Positions 8,797 to 16,195 of a DNA stretch of 64,000 nt are shown piece by piece. A model generated the notes under the pieces. That model saw only the letters and a program-made list of their open reading frames with translations, was not told where the DNA came from and did not search any database. Location of the stretch: positions 1-64,000 of the IMG/VR virus record IMGVR_UViG_3300022935_000005; one strand, written 5' to 3'. The translations under genes and the position numbers were made by a program. The stretch comes from a virus. Every line of letters begins with the position of its first letter. The first letter of the stretch is position 1.

Positions 8797-9036
8797 ATGA
8801 ACAATCTCCACATCATTGCCAACTATCTATTCGATAACCCAGGAGCGCGGTACACGGATGTCACAAAGCACTTGTGCCAGGAGCGCGGAAAGGTATGGAG
8901 CAAAGGGCACTATACTCGGTACTTCACCAACCCGATCTACAGCTCAGGTCGCCGGTACGCTCACCACCTCTGGTGCAAGACCCCATGCGGTGGATGGATG
9001 TTGACATTGGAAGGATATGGATATGTCCGCAAGTAA
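8797..9036 (+). CDS. Hypothetical protein (79 aa), possibly DNA-binding
   Basis: ATG 8797 follows AAAGAAGAG. The same frame is open back to a GTG at 8545 and the protein may be longer. The core NYLFDNPGARYTDVTKHLCQERG resembles a winged-helix opening (helix, turn, recognition helix), followed by KGHYTRYFTNPIY and two cysteines. DNA-binding is a guess. Its end overlaps the next gene. Confidence 0.55.
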   Translation: MNNLHIIANYLFDNPGARYTDVTKHLCQERGKVWSKGHYTRYFTNPIYSSGRRYAHHLWCKTPCGGWMLTLEGYGYVRK

Positions 9037-9298
9037 GCTCATAGAGGTCGGAGATCTGGTCCGGTGGGGCTGGCCCCGCTTCCACAGCGATTCTCGCGTG
9101 GGAATCGTGACGCGAGTAGATATCAAACCTCGAGGCGCCGGATTCAGAGTGCCCAACCCGCGAGTCCGCTATGTTGTGCAGTGGTTCTACCCAGATGGAC
9201 AACCCAGCATCACTCAAGAGCACGTCTTCAACAATGAGATAACACGAGTCACAGAGGATCGAAATCCATGGCAAGACAAAACAGAGACTTCAAAGTAG
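9023..9298 (+). CDS. SH3/Tudor-like small protein A (91 aa)
   Basis: ATG 9023 has the better spacing from GGAAGG than the in-frame ATG 9017. The pattern is EVGDLVRWGW ... VGIVTRVDI ... YVVQWFYPDG, repeated in the next five genes: a first strand GDxV, a turn, GxVTxV, then VxW and Gly. This is the signature of a small SH3-like barrel. First of a tandem set of six such genes overlapping or abutting one another. Function unknown. Confidence 0.7.
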   Translation: MSASKLIEVGDLVRWGWPRFHSDSRVGIVTRVDIKPRGAGFRVPNPRVRYVVQWFYPDGQPSITQEHVFNNEITRVTEDRNPWQDKTETSK

Positions 9299-9534
9299 GA
9301 GACATTGTCCAGTGGGCTCCACCGATCGGCGGCGCCAACTCCGGTCACGTCTTTAGAGATGCAGTGGGTCTTATTGTAGGTGTCAAGTACCCAGACCCCG
9401 ACTCACAGCGTAACGAATGGGCAGACCCTCACATGTGGTACACAGTCCAGTGGTTCAGAGACGGCATTGCATCGGGTCGACCAGATCACATCGTTGAACA
9501 CCACATTCAGAGAGTTCGAGATGACGCACCATAG
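9268..9534 (+). CDS. SH3/Tudor-like small protein B (88 aa)
   Basis: Overlaps the previous gene by 31 bases. Contains KVGDIVQWAPP ... VGLIVGVKYP ... YTVQWFRDG and a final EHHIQRVRDD. The same ordered pattern as protein A, so the two are probably paralogues. No catalytic residues seen. Confidence 0.7.
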   Translation: MARQNRDFKVGDIVQWAPPIGGANSGHVFRDAVGLIVGVKYPDPDSQRNEWADPHMWYTVQWFRDGIASGRPDHIVEHHIQRVRDDAP

Positions 9535-9817
9535 CAAGCTCAGCATCGGCGCGGGAGACACAGTGGTCCGGGTTCATGAGCAGGAAGACACCGATCCCTA
9601 CCCAGGACTCGTTATCAGGCGGGTAGAACCTCGTGAACTCTTGAGTATGGTGTTTGGAGAGGGAGATGACTTCGAAATGGGGGAAGCTCTATGGATGCGA
9701 GATGCAGCATCTGGTCTAGAGGAGTATTCGGGTGAATGGGTCCGCTATGAAGTCCTTTGGCCGGATGGTCGGTTCTCGATCGAATCGATCGCCCAAATCA
9801 GGAAGGCATATTCGTGA
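9521..9817 (+). CDS. SH3/Tudor-like small protein C (98 aa)
   Basis: ATG 9521 lies inside the end of protein B (14-base overlap). Contains GAGDTVVRVHE ... YPGLVIRRVEP ... VRYEVLWPDGRFSIESI. An acidic insert (LSMVFGEGDDFEMGEALW) separates the strands. Third tandem family member. Confidence 0.7.
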   Translation: MTHHSKLSIGAGDTVVRVHEQEDTDPYPGLVIRRVEPRELLSMVFGEGDDFEMGEALWMRDAASGLEEYSGEWVRYEVLWPDGRFSIESIAQIRKAYS

Positions 9818-10017
9818 TCGGTGTGGGAGACATTGTCTGCGTTGACGGAGATCTACTGGGTACAGCAATGGGACTCGGTCTTGTTACCCGGGTTTGTGAG
9901 TCTCGCTTTTCTAATTCATGTACTCGGTTTGTAGACGTCCTCTGGGCCTCGGGTGATATGTTCAAGGATGTTGATATGAACGTGCTGTTGCTTGTGCATT
10001 CTGCCGGCAGCCCGTGA
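9814..10017 (+). CDS. SH3/Tudor-like small protein D (67 aa)
   Basis: GTG 9814 overlaps the upstream stop as GTGA and is preceded by AGGAAGG at 7 bases; an upstream ATG at 9757 in the same frame has no site. Contains VGDIVCVDGD ... GLGLVTRVCE ... FVDVLWASGD, matching the family in order and spacing. Confidence 0.7.
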   Translation: MIGVGDIVCVDGDLLGTAMGLGLVTRVCESRFSNSCTRFVDVLWASGDMFKDVDMNVLLLVHSAGSP

Positions 10018-10039
10018 CCTGCTAGTATACTTAAATGTT

Positions 10040-10276
10040 ATGGACACCGACTCACGCTATTCTGATGTTATCATTGGCTCACTTGTTGACCATCCGGTCT
10101 ACGGCCCGGGGCTGATCACTGCTGTCACGACCGAACCCGCATTTGCGACGCGCCAAAGCACGCATCGTCCCGATTACATCATTGTCTGTAGCGTCCTATG
10201 GAACACGGGTGAGTTGCAAACTGGCTGGCCCGCCAACCGGCTCGTCGATTACCTTGTGTTAACGTCGATTATCTAG
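10040..10276 (+). CDS. SH3/Tudor-like small protein E (78 aa), leaderless
   Basis: TATACT at 10026-10031 ends eight bases before this ATG and no ribosome-binding site is present, so the mRNA is probably leaderless. The protein has IIGSLVDHPVYGPGLITAV followed by VCSVLWNTGEL: here the first strand carries the HPxxGxG motif of UvrD-type Tudor tails. Confidence 0.65.
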   Translation: MDTDSRYSDVIIGSLVDHPVYGPGLITAVTTEPAFATRQSTHRPDYIIVCSVLWNTGELQTGWPANRLVDYLVLTSII

Positions 10277-10293
10277 AGCGTATACTTAACGAT

Positions 10294-10575
10294 ATGGCAA
10301 AGGAAACTGTATTCTCCCCGCGCGGTGCTCTGCACCGGAACCTTGTTGGGTGCATCATCGTTCATCCGCACTTGGGTCACGGGCTCGTCACGAGCACGGA
10401 TCGCTACTGGACTGAAGTCCGGCAACAGCGACGTCAAGTCTGGACTGTTCTCTGGTCTGAGACCGGTACCGCTGAAGATGTTGACGAACGCATCATGCAA
10501 CACTGCATGATCATTGACGACGGAGACGGCGCTAAAGAGTGGGGTTCATGGGCCGAGGTTGTAGGTCACAAGTGA
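10294..10575 (+). CDS. SH3/Tudor-like small protein F (93 aa), leaderless
   Basis: TATACT at 10281-10286 lies seven bases before the ATG, the same arrangement as protein E. The protein contains GCIIVHPHLGHGLVTS ... VWTVLWSETG, then an acidic C-terminal helix. Last of the tandem family, followed by a hairpin. Confidence 0.65.
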   Translation: MAKETVFSPRGALHRNLVGCIIVHPHLGHGLVTSTDRYWTEVRQQRRQVWTVLWSETGTAEDVDERIMQHCMIIDDGDGAKEWGSWAEVVGHK

Positions 10576-11212: not shown

Positions 11213-11419
11213 GTGTTGGAGCGAATCAAGAAGATCAACAAGACGTTCGCTGTAATATCTATAATAGTTGCTGTCTGGTTGCACATGTACGTAAAATCAA
11301 TCAAGCAACAGAGCGATGATGCTGTATATTTAGAAAAACAACCAGGATGGAGAAATCAAAATGTCCAACAAAATCAATGCAACCCAGTTGAGAAATCTGA
11401 TCATGGAAGTGCTAAATGA
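11213..11419 (+). CDS. Possible small membrane protein (68 aa)
   Basis: GTG start ten bases after GAGGAGGAGG. The segment TFAVISIIVAVWLHMYV is a clear membrane span. The last 19 residues overlap the start of the next gene in another frame and look unstructured, so the frame might be accidental at its end. No family recognised. Confidence 0.4.
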   Translation: MLERIKKINKTFAVISIIVAVWLHMYVKSIKQQSDDAVYLEKQPGWRNQNVQQNQCNPVEKSDHGSAK

Positions 11420-11726
11420 AGAAGCACACGAAGAAGGCGAGCACAATGAGCTAGACGAGATGGACGCTGCCATGCCCATGCCAAAGGGCGATGCTGAGCG
11501 ACTACCTGTCGGCACTCGTGTTACGCACCCTGAATGGGGCGCCGGTGAAGTCGTCGGTCATGGAGACCATGAGTTCGATCACCTTGTTCGATGGGACAAG
11601 CTTCCTAACCGCGATCGTCTTGCTCACAGATTCCAGCTTATTCCTGAGAGCGTTGGTAATGATGATTTGAATGAGTCAGCTGACCTTGCACGTTGGCGTA
11701 AGCTAGCAGGCATTCTAGTAGATTGA
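11361..11726 (+). CDS. Tagged protein with Tudor-like domain (121 aa)
   Basis: The N-terminus INATQLRNLIMEVLNEE is a divergent copy of the MKITKxQLRRIIxE tag seen at 12976, 13399 and 13678. After an acidic, His-rich linker comes a Tudor/SH3-like unit: VGTRVTHPEWGAGEVVGHG ... HLVRWDKLP ... FQLIPE (residues about 49-95), the same HPxxGxG pattern as the early-region proteins at 1185, 10040 and 10294. The C-terminus is helical. I infer a virion-internal protein carrying a nucleic-acid or polymerase-binding barrel; not proven. Confidence 0.75.
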   Translation: MSNKINATQLRNLIMEVLNEEAHEEGEHNELDEMDAAMPMPKGDAERLPVGTRVTHPEWGAGEVVGHGDHEFDHLVRWDKLPNRDRLAHRFQLIPESVGNDDLNESADLARWRKLAGILVD

Positions 11727-11977
11727 TGGTCTCGTCTTTCTATTGCGTCTGGTACAAAGATGCCAGTGTCAATAAGGAGACGTGCGTCGGAGCATGCTCT
11801 ACTTGGGATGAGGCAAGAAGTCTCGCTGGGCGCCTCTACACGGTAAAGAAAAAGATAGACGATTCAGAAAATCTCTCTACTGGTATTTTTCTCTTCTCTC
11901 CCGGCGAACTTTATACAGCGCGATCTCCCAAAAGGTGGCAGATAATGCCGCTGCTGACCAGCAATACACAGCCTTAG
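11726..11977 (+). CDS. Hypothetical protein (83 aa)
   Basis: ATG overlaps the previous stop (TGATG). Contains FYCVWYKDASVNKETCVGACSTWDEARSLAGRLYTVKKK, a strand-helix-strand layout with four cysteines. No family recognised; no N-terminal tag. Confidence 0.6.
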   Translation: MVSSFYCVWYKDASVNKETCVGACSTWDEARSLAGRLYTVKKKIDDSENLSTGIFLFSPGELYTARSPKRWQIMPLLTSNTQP

Positions 11978-12019
11978 ATTATATTTACTATTAGTATCTA
12001 CGCACGGGAGATTTTTTAT

Positions 12020-12973
12020 ATGCGCAACTCAAGAGACAAGATTCGAAAGATCATTGCTGAACAGCTCGAGATTGAGCTTGAAAAGCTTGAAGACTTAGAG
12101 GCTACGGAAGATGCCTGGGCCGGCGGAGAAAACCTCGTCCACGACCTCGACCATTCTAAGATCACTGGTGGTGAATCGAACGTTGCGAGTCCAGAGACTC
12201 TAGAGATTATTGTCGCAGAGGTCCGGCGGCGTATCCAAGAGATGCAGGCTCATTCAAGGCCTGGAGATCTAAAACAGCCCCGGCCAGAAGAGACTGAATT
12301 TCCTGTTGTGGTTGGTTACTCCATCAACGGTCAACCCCAGTCAGAGATCGCATATGACGACGAAGAGTTAACTCAAATTTTAGATTACCTCGCGCCGTTA
12401 AGTCCTGGCGCAAAGCAGATCCCCTACAGTATAGATTCACTCAGCGATGTAGAAGCAGCTGACGTTCCTGTTGGTTCTAGAATTGAGCGCTATTCAGAGG
12501 CAAAGGATCAGAACAAGGACGGCAAGAACGATTTCGAAGATGTCAAGATTGCCAGAATGCGTGCTTCTGGTATGTCCGACGCCGAGATCAAGAAGAAACA
12601 TCCAGAGCTCTTTGAGGAAAGTGTTGTGCACAAACAACTTAGAAAGATCATCAGGGAAGCTATCATGGCAGAAAGTGGTATAGACGCAAATAAGCGAGCC
12701 GTTGAATTGTTAAATAGAGACTATGACGTTATTTCTGATGACACTAGCTACCCTTATGGTCGCTACCGCGGGGATGTTAGGCAGAAGACTGTATACGCCA
12801 GAAAAGACGGGCAGCCTGTTCCAGAAGCAGATATTAATCTTCTTAAAACCCGGGATGCTAAGGTTCGGGAAGCAGGTGGCTCAATGGCAGCTCTATCTGG
12901 AGTCTACACATCGAAAGTCTCCAGTGATGGACTCCAGATTATTGTAGATTATTATAGACACACGGCGGGGTAA
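12020..12973 (+). CDS. Two-unit tagged protein (317 aa)
   Basis: Two copies of the tag occur: MRNSRDKIRKIIAEQLEIE at the N-terminus and VVHKQLRKIIREAIMAES at about residue 209. Between them lies an acidic region, then a calcium-loop-like DQNKDGKNDFEDVKIARMRASGMSDAEIKKKHPELF (about 168-203). The part after the second tag (about 95 residues) reads as an independent beta-alpha unit (DDTSYPYGRYRGDVRQKTVYARKDGQPV). The internal tag contains IIRE followed by A, a good match to a T4-type prohead-protease site, so the protein may be cut in two. Start chosen at 12020 with GGGAG upstream. Confidence 0.75.
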   Translation: MRNSRDKIRKIIAEQLEIELEKLEDLEATEDAWAGGENLVHDLDHSKITGGESNVASPETLEIIVAEVRRRIQEMQAHSRPGDLKQPRPEETEFPVVVGYSINGQPQSEIAYDDEELTQILDYLAPLSPGAKQIPYSIDSLSDVEAADVPVGSRIERYSEAKDQNKDGKNDFEDVKIARMRASGMSDAEIKKKHPELFEESVVHKQLRKIIREAIMAESGIDANKRAVELLNRDYDVISDDTSYPYGRYRGDVRQKTVYARKDGQPVPEADINLLKTRDAKVREAGGSMAALSGVYTSKVSSDGLQIIVDYYRHTAG

Positions 12974-12975
12974 TC

Positions 12976-13395
12976 ATGAAGATCACAAGAACACAGATTA
13001 GAAATATTCTACAAGAAGCAATGGGTCAAGATGGAGTGTTTCCTGATCTAAGCCACCCTCTGATTGCTCCCTATGCTGACAAAATGCAGGGTCCTATTAA
13101 GGGCCGAGAAGGTAAGTGGTTCGTAGAATACCAGAGCTACAAGTACAATGCTGGTGGTCAAAGCGATCAAGGTATTACTGTATACCTCCTCCCTGATGGT
13201 AAATACACTGCTCGAGTTGGGGGTAACTTTAACAATACGATCTCTGGTCGTATAGGGAAGGATTTTGACGATCCAGAAAGTGCTATCGAAGCTGCCCTTA
13301 ACTCAGGCCCTTCAGCTACCGGCCCAACAGCCGCAGAGCTTCTCAAGAAGGTCGGCGAAAAAGTCTCCACTCGCGGATACATAGGACAGGATTAA
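12976..13395 (+). CDS. Tagged virion-type protein (139 aa)
   Basis: Begins MKITRTQIRNILQEAM: the tag, ending LQE-A like a T4 prohead-protease cleavage site. The rest is a mixed fold with WFVEYQSYKYN ... GITVYLLPDGKYTARVGG and a C-terminal helix. Two bases separate it from the preceding gene. No known domain. Confidence 0.75.
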   Translation: MKITRTQIRNILQEAMGQDGVFPDLSHPLIAPYADKMQGPIKGREGKWFVEYQSYKYNAGGQSDQGITVYLLPDGKYTARVGGNFNNTISGRIGKDFDDPESAIEAALNSGPSATGPTAAELLKKVGEKVSTRGYIGQD

Positions 13396-13398
13396 ATC

Positions 13399-13668
13399 AT
13401 GAAAATCACCAAGAGACAACTTAGAAGAATCATCAAAGAATCGTTCGACGAATTTGGTATGAGTGAGTACGGTCTTTACAACGATGCTGGATCGTCAGTA
13501 GAAGCAGAGTTTGACGCATTGCTTGACGAAGTTGCCTTGTTTATGAGTGATGCAAGAAAAAGGCTAAATGCCCTAATGGAGAAACACTCGGACGTCGGGG
13601 CTTCTGATAGTGAAGCGGTCGATTTGATAAGCGCAGCTTTTGAAGACGCAAAGTCTGGCATGCGATAG
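13399..13668 (+). CDS. Tagged helical protein (89 aa)
   Basis: Begins MKITKRQLRRIIKESF, the clearest copy of the tag, with IIKE-S at the predicted cut. The remainder is acidic and helical (EAEFDALLDEVALFMSDARKRLNALMEKH). Three bases after the previous gene. Unknown function. Confidence 0.75.
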   Translation: MKITKRQLRRIIKESFDEFGMSEYGLYNDAGSSVEAEFDALLDEVALFMSDARKRLNALMEKHSDVGASDSEAVDLISAAFEDAKSGMR

Positions 13669-13677
13669 GGAGAAATC

Positions 13678-13980
13678 ATGAAGATCACAAAACAACAACT
13701 TAGAAGAATTATCTCAGAGCAGCTTACACTAGATGATCTTGTGGTTGGACCTGAACAGCCTCGACAACTCGGTTACGGTGAAGGTGAGGGTCGCATGTCA
13801 AAATCTCAACTTGACAAGATCGCTCGTTATTCTCAATCACTGCATGATAAACTGCTTGACGATGATGATCTACCAGAATGGGTACAATCAAAGATCGCTG
13901 TCGCTGCAGATAACATCGGTAAAGTATACCACTATCTTGATTACAAAATTAGACGTATGGAACAAGGAGATGAATCATGA
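13678..13980 (+). CDS. Tagged helical protein (100 aa)
   Basis: Begins MKITKQQLRRIISEQL. The remainder is helical with an acidic patch (LLDDDDLPEWVQSKIAVAADNIGKVYHYLDYKIRRM). Preceded by GGGAGAAATC. The stop overlaps the next start as ATGA. Unknown function. Confidence 0.75.
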   Translation: MKITKQQLRRIISEQLTLDDLVVGPEQPRQLGYGEGEGRMSKSQLDKIARYSQSLHDKLLDDDDLPEWVQSKIAVAADNIGKVYHYLDYKIRRMEQGDES

Positions 13981-15136: not shown

Positions 15137-15427
15137 ATGGCCAAAGTAAATGAAAATGGGATAGGAAGCAACTATAAGACTCTTGACCCAAACCCTATAA
15201 CTCACTTTAACGATCCAAGAATCAGTGTTGAGATTTATCCCGGGGCTTGGGGAGATGTGCACGCAAACGTTTCGTGTAAAGAGTTGAGTTATGACTCAGG
15301 CCTTAAGACATTTAAGACCGACCAAGAGGCAAGAACGTTTGCTCTAAACCTACACGATCAGCTTGTTACCAAACTTGATTCGTTAATAGAAAACGTTATG
15401 TTAAGAATCATCAGGGAGATGAGCTAA
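15137..15427 (+). CDS. Hypothetical protein (96 aa)
   Basis: Weak ribosome-binding site. A beta part (ISVEIYPGAWGDVHANVSCKEL) is followed by a C-terminal helix ending NVMLRIIREMS, which resembles the LRRIIxE core of the tag but sits at the C-terminus. Its last 27 bases overlap the convergent protease gene. Confidence 0.6.
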   Translation: MAKVNENGIGSNYKTLDPNPITHFNDPRISVEIYPGAWGDVHANVSCKELSYDSGLKTFKTDQEARTFALNLHDQLVTKLDSLIENVMLRIIREMS

Positions 15428-16195
15428 TAGAAATTCTCTTATTGATCTAGTCTTTGGTCCAATAGCGTATTCATCAAACCTAACAGCTGCCGCTGACACA
15501 ATGGAGACAACTTCATTTTTGTGGTTCATTATCGGAGAACCACTTGAGCCACCTACCGCCGGCACTGTGAATAGACTTATCATCGATATATCACCGATAT
15601 AGTAACCATCGAAAACAGGAACTGCTAACGGAGAAGATAGCCCAGCTGGGTTGGCCATGTTGTATACTTTGGAATGGAGCATCATGTCCTTTTGTGCTAT
15701 CTCTAAACCGGGTCCTAAGTCCTTGTTCGCTTTGAGGAGACATATGTCATTGTTTGTATCGATCGCAACAATCTCTCCTCGTCCTTCTCTGCCAAATCCT
15801 GTAGTCAAGCTTATCCTGTAAGCCACCCTGAGATTTGACGCTAATGGCCCGGGTACCATTGGCATCTTTGGAGGCATGCATATATGACCTGCTGTAACGA
15901 TATATTCATCTTTACTTGAGGTCTCTAAAATAAACCCTGAACCCATGCTGGTTTGACTTCCCAAGATTCCTTCTACACACCCTTCGCTTTTATCATTTTC
16001 GCATGAGATTGAAAAAACAAACTCTTGTGTTGTCATGACAAATGACTCTATGGGGAAGTATGAGTTCTCTTTTTTGATTACAGTATTGTCTGTTGTTCTT
16101 ATAATTTTATTCGGAACTTTAATGTTGAGACAACCAGACAGCAGAAAGAATAAAGCCGTAATCGAGAGTAGCAGCTGAATGATTAACTTTCTCAT
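15401..16195 (-). CDS. Secreted lipoprotein, trypsin-like serine protease (264 aa)
   Basis: Signal peptide MRKLIIQLLLSITALFFLL with lipobox LSGC (Cys22) predicts a lipid-anchored envelope protein. The catalytic triad of a chymotrypsin-fold (S1) protease is visible: TAGHIC (His104), NNDICLLKA (Asp150) and GGSSGSP (Ser218). Additional cysteines (65, 73, 106, 152) may form disulfides. It is a lone minus-strand gene, with its own GGAG site, convergent with the gene at 15137 and divergent from 16259. A phage-made envelope protease could act in superinfection exclusion or host conversion; this is inference. Confidence 0.8.
   Translation of the reverse strand: MRKLIIQLLLSITALFFLLSGCLNIKVPNKIIRTTDNTVIKKENSYFPIESFVMTTQEFVFSISCENDKSEGCVEGILGSQTSMGSGFILETSSKDEYIVTAGHICMPPKMPMVPGPLASNLRVAYRISLTTGFGREGRGEIVAIDTNNDICLLKANKDLGPGLEIAQKDMMLHSKVYNMANPAGLSSPLAVPVFDGYYIGDISMISLFTVPAVGGSSGSPIMNHKNEVVSIVSAAAVRFDEYAIGPKTRSIREFLLAHLPDDS

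Follow-up and report, generated by a model that had tools for sequence, protein, structure and literature searches.

Why should five consecutive or near-consecutive genes of a viral genome begin with variants of one short sequence, MKITKxQLRRIIxE? The question is raised by positions 11361-13980 of the window, i.e. bases 1-64000 of the virus record IMGVR_UViG_3300022935_000005, whose full length is 280,913 bases. A preliminary description of this stretch had proposed that the common N-terminus resembles a capsid-targeting signal cut by a prohead protease. Our analysis assigns a probability of about 0.84 to the reading that the tag is a capsid-targeting propeptide, similar in action to the T4 capsid-targeting sequence (CTS), from which the body would be freed in the head by a gp21-type protease. 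The features of the locus are as follows, with a slash marking the predicted cut.

11361-11726, plus strand: gene 1 (121 aa), N-terminal tag MSNKINATQLRNLIME at 11361-11408, profile match E = 7.9e-9
11670-11723, plus strand: scaffold-like C-terminal motif NESADLARWRKLAGILVD of gene 1
12020-12973, plus strand: gene 2 (317 aa), N-terminal tag MRNSRDKIRKIIAE/Q at 12020-12061
12110-12139, plus strand: motif DAWAGGENLV in gene 2, behind its tag
about 12623-12658, plus strand: internal second tag VHKQLRKIIRE/A in gene 2
12976-13395, plus strand: gene 3 (139 aa), tag MKITRTQIRNILQE/A at 12976-13017, profile match E = 8.8e-10
13399-13668, plus strand: gene 4 (89 aa), tag MKITKRQLRRIIKE/S at 13399-13440, profile match E = 1.2e-11
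13678-13980, plus strand: gene 5 (100 aa), tag MKITKQQLRRIISE/Q at 13678-13719, profile match E = 2.4e-10

The five ORFs, their coordinates and their N-termini are as given in the preliminary description, and the bodies behind the tag are indeed mutually unrelated, with no BLASTP match between them (best E 0.06). Its claim that three copies fit a T4-type cleavage site (LQE-A, IKE-S and IRE-A) holds for the first two; the third is not N-terminal and corresponds to the internal second tag of gene 2, from which the release of two proteins would be possible. The rule of A, G or S after the cut is too strict for this clade. Since the residue at this position is mostly A, Q, S or V in 61 distinct capsid-protein sites, all five window copies fit the cleavage site. 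In gene 1, a further LNE follows the tag and ends at 11420. The predicted structure of the gene 5 protein comprises a tag helix at residues 5-16 (low confidence), a disordered linker at residues 17-34 and then a helical hairpin. Among close matches, relatives of genes 1, 2 and 3 are found only on a near-identical contig.

Upstream of the cluster, at 9017-10575, several small ORFs in a row have similar V.W motifs and resemble by eye the body of gene 1; a Pfam search of this row gave no match, and if these ORFs and gene 1 are paralogs, the tag is present on just one of the row. On the minus strand, 15401-16195 encodes a protease of the trypsin type (Trypsin_2, E = 1e-10) that bears LLSGC, a lipoprotein-type signal; its neighbours are on the opposite strand.

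The tag cluster is real, but it is not special to the window, as tags are spread over the genome. The record is that of a giant T4-like phage in which about thirty proteins start with either of two short tags: about 19 N-termini are of the MKITKxQLRRIIxE kind (class I), and about 9-12 are of a second kind, MxLLREYIRELLxE (class II). Outside the window they are located as follows.

197222: class I
238278-241901: ten class I genes
247264, 277791 and 278050: class I
199402-205572: nine class II genes
137860, 139272 and 241902: class II look-alikes

Every ORF of the genome was scanned window by window with a position-specific score, shuffled ORFs serving as the control. Twenty windows exceed 16 bits, compared with 0.1 expected from the shuffled ORFs. 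Most of the N-termini above this threshold also trained the score, and we therefore place weight on the held-out hits, namely 277791, two internal copies, gene 2 and two genes of the head block, A and B, described below. Derivation of the class II tag from gene A or from class I is unsupported by the profile comparison (13-15% probability), which indicates a common shape only.

Two or more tags in series are seen in an 850-aa ORF (locus L234) and in ORFs at 239447 and 173482 of the genome, where xE/S often precedes the internal tag, in the manner of small polyproteins. At 199920-204059, three class II-tagged genes share the body KESVDPKIMSM.DR.E, and one gene of this region is GNAT-like and another carries HELVH (weak Tox-MPTase3 match).

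A gp21-type protease, for which the preliminary description had suggested a search, is present in the record outside the window, as a Peptidase_S77 gene (PF03420 match at 106790-107218, E = 1.3e-26) with T4-like H and S motifs. Its N-terminus has a site of its own, LLTE/W; T4 gp21 starts LLIE/T. The gene lies in a head block arranged in the following order.

before 106703: large terminase (TerL), portal (gp20) and a small gene
106703-107323: protease (gp21)
107320: small gene
107690: gene A
108187: gene B
between gene B and 109645: two small genes
109645-111162: scaffold (gp22)
111193: capsid (gp23)

Genes A and B, which we label small core proteins solely by position, are present in most relatives that show the head region. 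At the place of FLTE/A in T4 gp23, the major capsid proteins of about 40 relatives show ENQxxQ[LIV]L[RK]E/[ASQV] with hardly any variation. The T4 late promoter TATAAATA is absent upstream of the tag and head genes and thus lends no support to late expression; in the whole record this motif is rarer (6 occurrences) than expected from base composition (about 22). In the Microcystis phage Mel-JY01, a protein encoded between the protease and scaffold genes (L097:9356-10519) looks by eye like an ADP-ribosyltransferase and has no Pfam match; T4 Alt is an ADP-ribosyltransferase.

The tag seems to be related to proteins of this block. Outside the tag set and gene 2, the best windows in a tag-profile scan of all ORFs are the N-termini of genes A and B (11.2 and 10.2 bits, respectively), with 0.75 windows above 10 bits expected genome-wide. 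When profiles are compared with that of the tag, gene A is matched at E = 4.3e-7 and gene B at E = 3.7e-7, and 2000 column permutations produced no score as high. A second connection is provided by a DAWAGGxNLV-type motif. In the loci collected up to that point it occurred in five proteins, of which two are copies of gene B and three are tagged cargo. Viral contigs were then searched with a DNA pattern for DAWxGGxNLV, which yielded 26 stretches; gene B beside protease, scaffold or capsid genes accounts for most of them, and all others are tagged cargo, with gene 2 of the window as one of the latter. Homology of gene B or of the tag to T4 gp67, gp68, gp21 or gp22 was rejected, the matches being weak or not significant; for gene B, shuffled sequences scored as well in 19 of 300 trials against gp67 and in 240 of 300 against gp68. 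Genes A and B resemble gp67 and gp68 in being small, in lying in the head block beside the protease and in carrying [LI]xE sites, but they are placed after gp21 rather than before it and show no significant sequence match.

At the other end of the protein, the C-terminus RWxxLAGI is common to gene 1 (NESADLARWRKLAGILVD), the gp22 scaffold (NESAQTDRWARLAGIKSK) and the ORF at 169061-170494. The scaffold ends in RWxxLAG[IL] throughout the clade, including a Flavobacterium phage, with the variant RMKKLAGI in a Microcystis phage. In several relatives, the gene directly after the capsid gene ends like gp22, and in locus L036 it is also tagged N-terminally.

Whether the tag is cut can be judged from the residues around its conserved Glu. 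We collected 601 distinct tagged N-termini, in 549 of which the tag begins right at the start Met, and position 14 is Glu in 94%. In the short form (about 235 proteins, with a residue other than Glu at position 15), A makes up 43% and S 17% of the residues at this position; the set A/S/G/T/V/Q accounts for 84% and charged residues for 0.4%. The residue after the cut in the 61 capsid sites shows the same preference (97% and 1.6%), and residue 30 of the tagged proteins, taken as the control, gives 35% and 36%. In the long form (about 330 proteins, with Glu at position 15), 75% have a second [LIVM]xE at positions 20-24, versus 15% of the short form (Fisher p = 2e-47; p = 2e-22 with one protein per body cluster) and a background of 9-12% in equal-sized body slots. 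This second site lies 6-10 residues beyond position 14. Two features of the long tags count against head targeting: the Glu directly after E14 is avoided in capsid sites, and about a quarter have no second site. Three homologous zeta-type kinases, with leaders of 20, 34 and 37 residues, are alike exactly from the position after [IL]L[AST]E/G. P3 is I, L or V in both tags and capsid sites. As in T4-type internal head proteins, the leader closes with an [LI]xE site whose preferences follow those of the capsid-protein site of the phage itself. Taken as sequence patterns, the residue-15 rule, the second site and the kinase alignment are the traces expected of a cut that is required.

Looking for the tag in related phages, also suggested at the outset, gave a positive result, the tag profile detecting as many as 39 copies in a single genome among related viral records. 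An exact search with a degenerate DNA pattern for MKITKxQLRRII matched 87 stretches of viral contigs, whereas across 84,980 prokaryote genomes it matched no more than four contigs. Two of the four carry many tags: NHDW01000006.1, binned as Methylococcaceae, also has a gp21 protease gene, and PBIO01000025.1, binned as Halobacteriovorax, is equal in length to an IMG/VR record. Because of the protease and of this length, respectively, they seem to be phage contigs that were placed in bacterial bins, and at least two of the four are apparently phage. The PF03420 protease is present in 11 of 11 tagged records longer than 160 kb; the seven tagged records without it are all shorter than 135 kb and may be fragments. 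A tblastn search of the bare tag against named phages gave no match, the query being too short, and a search of open-access papers for the tag strings or for such a tag system returned nothing relevant.

As for the bodies, 581 tagged proteins fall into 295 clusters with a median length of 110 residues, most of them without a known domain. The domains recognised comprise a zeta-type kinase, an L,D-transpeptidase (YkuD) and DUF192, together with weak matches to GNAT and HAD. The preliminary description had named a tag on clearly non-virion enzymes as an outcome that would speak against it. No such case was found: none of the replication or nucleotide-metabolism genes identified in the genome is tagged, and none of the tagged proteins was recognised as an enzyme of either kind. 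One finding counts in the other direction, in that a HAD homolog is untagged in two relatives.

The domain that forms the body of gene 5 (pattern EGxMAKSQL...HDML..DDxLPEWVQSKIT..DYI..V..YL) occurs in more than 500 viral contigs and in many protein contexts; the copy in the window has no Pfam match above chance. In this clade the domain stands behind the MKITK tag, and in other T4-like phages it is found in proteins starting with MKTFKEYG or MKSFRQFCEE, which look like T4-type leaders. DUF192 is found here behind the class II tag and also in T4-GC119 of the cyanophage S-SM2, which holds a domain of the gene 5 type as well. Identical cargo under unrelated leaders would fit with an equal function of the leaders. 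For the cyanophage S-SM1, a virion proteome has been reported (PMC3037559).

The small size of many bodies and their lack of known domains would also suit expendable fillers of the prohead core or scaffold helpers, which enter the core through the tag, are largely degraded and leave, and are thus neither stable cargo nor ejected. T4 gp67, gp68 and gp22 behave in this manner: they enter the core and are then largely degraded and leave. The resemblance of the tag to the N-termini of genes A and B, together with the second gene B motif in gene 2, points in the same direction. However, the number of body clusters far exceeds the needs of a scaffold, enzyme-like bodies exist among them, and the kinase bodies are conserved directly from the predicted cut, so we regard the tagged proteins as improbable core fillers.

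Less probable still, and quite unlikely in our judgement, is a reading of the tag as an amphipathic helix that docks elsewhere than on the capsid, for instance on a membrane, a replication compartment or a host factor, and has come to resemble genes A and B by convergence. A predicted short helix on a flexible linker suits any docking role, but docking alone predicts neither the capsid-like residues after the Glu nor the compensation by a second site, and the genes that match the tag profile are located between the protease and the scaffold, with the DAWxGGxNLV motif common to gene B and tagged cargo. Where tag residues are identical, their codons differ in 37-50% of comparisons, so that conservation is to be sought in selection at the protein level and not in a recent DNA repeat. 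The idea that the tags are mere remains of gene duplication, a functionless leader of one small family that was copied, can be virtually dismissed, since this divergence at synonymous codons, the 295 body clusters and the coincidence of the conserved positions with the hydrophobic and Glu positions outweigh the tandem cluster at 238-241 kb and the codons that some tags share.

Returning to the capsid-targeting propeptide, we envisage the following course. The N-terminal amphipathic helix of the tag, in which P7, P4 and P3 ahead of the Glu are hydrophobic, would bind to the forming prohead core. When the prohead is complete, the gp21-type protease would cut the tag after [LI]xE and free the body inside the head, where it would remain with the DNA and probably be ejected with it. 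The RWxxLAGI motif at the C-terminus of some cargo probably makes a second contact to the core or shell. The tag itself appears to be derived from, or to have common ancestry with, the N-terminus of gene B, and would then have been placed before many unrelated small proteins. We infer that the tagged proteins are packaged, cleaved and ejected and serve as helpers or effectors; head targeting and cleavage are well supported by the sequence patterns, and ejection and effector function would be reasonable by analogy. More broadly, we would give even odds that widespread, undescribed environmental large T4-like phages fill their heads with a changing set of 20-40 small proteins, bearing interchangeable N-terminal tags from core proteins and C-terminal tags from the scaffold, which are delivered to the host at infection.

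The capsid-targeting sequence of the T4 internal proteins was reportedly treated by Mullaney and Black in 1996; it reads MKTYQEFIAE. This CTS is carried by the internal proteins IPI-IPIII, together with Alt, and is cut by gp21 (reviewed in PMC9026906 and PMC9958956). According to mutational data, residues 4 and 7 govern targeting and residue 8 processing, the P1 Glu being residue 10 (PMC9026906). The present tags resemble it as short N-terminal leaders on unrelated small proteins with a gp21-type [LI]xE end, in a genome that encodes a gp21-type protease, and the spacing of P7, P4, P3 and P1 equals that of T4 residues 4, 7, 8 and 10. By eye, however, they have no sequence identity to the T4 CTS beyond this hydrophobic and Glu spacing. 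Unlike in T4, there are two tag types, many genomes encode 20-40 tagged proteins rather than a handful, the genes to which the tag is related lie between gp21 and gp22, a cut site that precedes Glu is followed by a second one, and a C-terminal scaffold motif is optional. Moreover, the function of the T4 CTS is experimental, whereas that of the tags is read from sequence. We therefore describe the tag as functionally like the T4 CTS and not as a sequence member of the T4 CTS family.

In phiKZ-like phages and SPN3US, internal or ejected head proteins have N-terminal propeptides cut after Glu by gp175 and gp245, respectively (PMC10052503, PMC5694885). The cleavage motif in these phages is S/A-x-E or A-x-E, from which the tags differ in having I, L or V at P3; the propeptides are mostly long (111-254 aa), and no common tag over dozens of bodies has been described for them.

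How certain proteins localise in the scaffolding core is still considered mysterious in a review of the T4 head (PMC9958956). T4 has few tagged proteins, whereas hundreds of natural variants here show which residues matter; they tie the tag to specific head genes and allow a simple sequence-based prediction of head cargo. Should the cargo be ejected, the phages would possess a large repertoire of first-minute proteins, most of them unknown, and the tags could serve to load foreign proteins into large phage heads. The idea is directly testable since a cultured relative, the Flavobacterium phage vB_FspM_immuto_2-6A, whose host is Flavobacterium sp. LMO8, has gp21, a scaffold ending in RWQKLAGIIK and one such tagged protein, immuto26A_191 (MKKSQLRQIIKE/ALDASTPAPNEIPGG). 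In the same phage, a further protein (L141:3676-4140) starts with MKKQILSEQFRRMQKLAGIITE/SQ, i.e. with the LAGI motif of the scaffold at its N-terminus followed by [LI]xE/S, which is perhaps another head-targeting leader.
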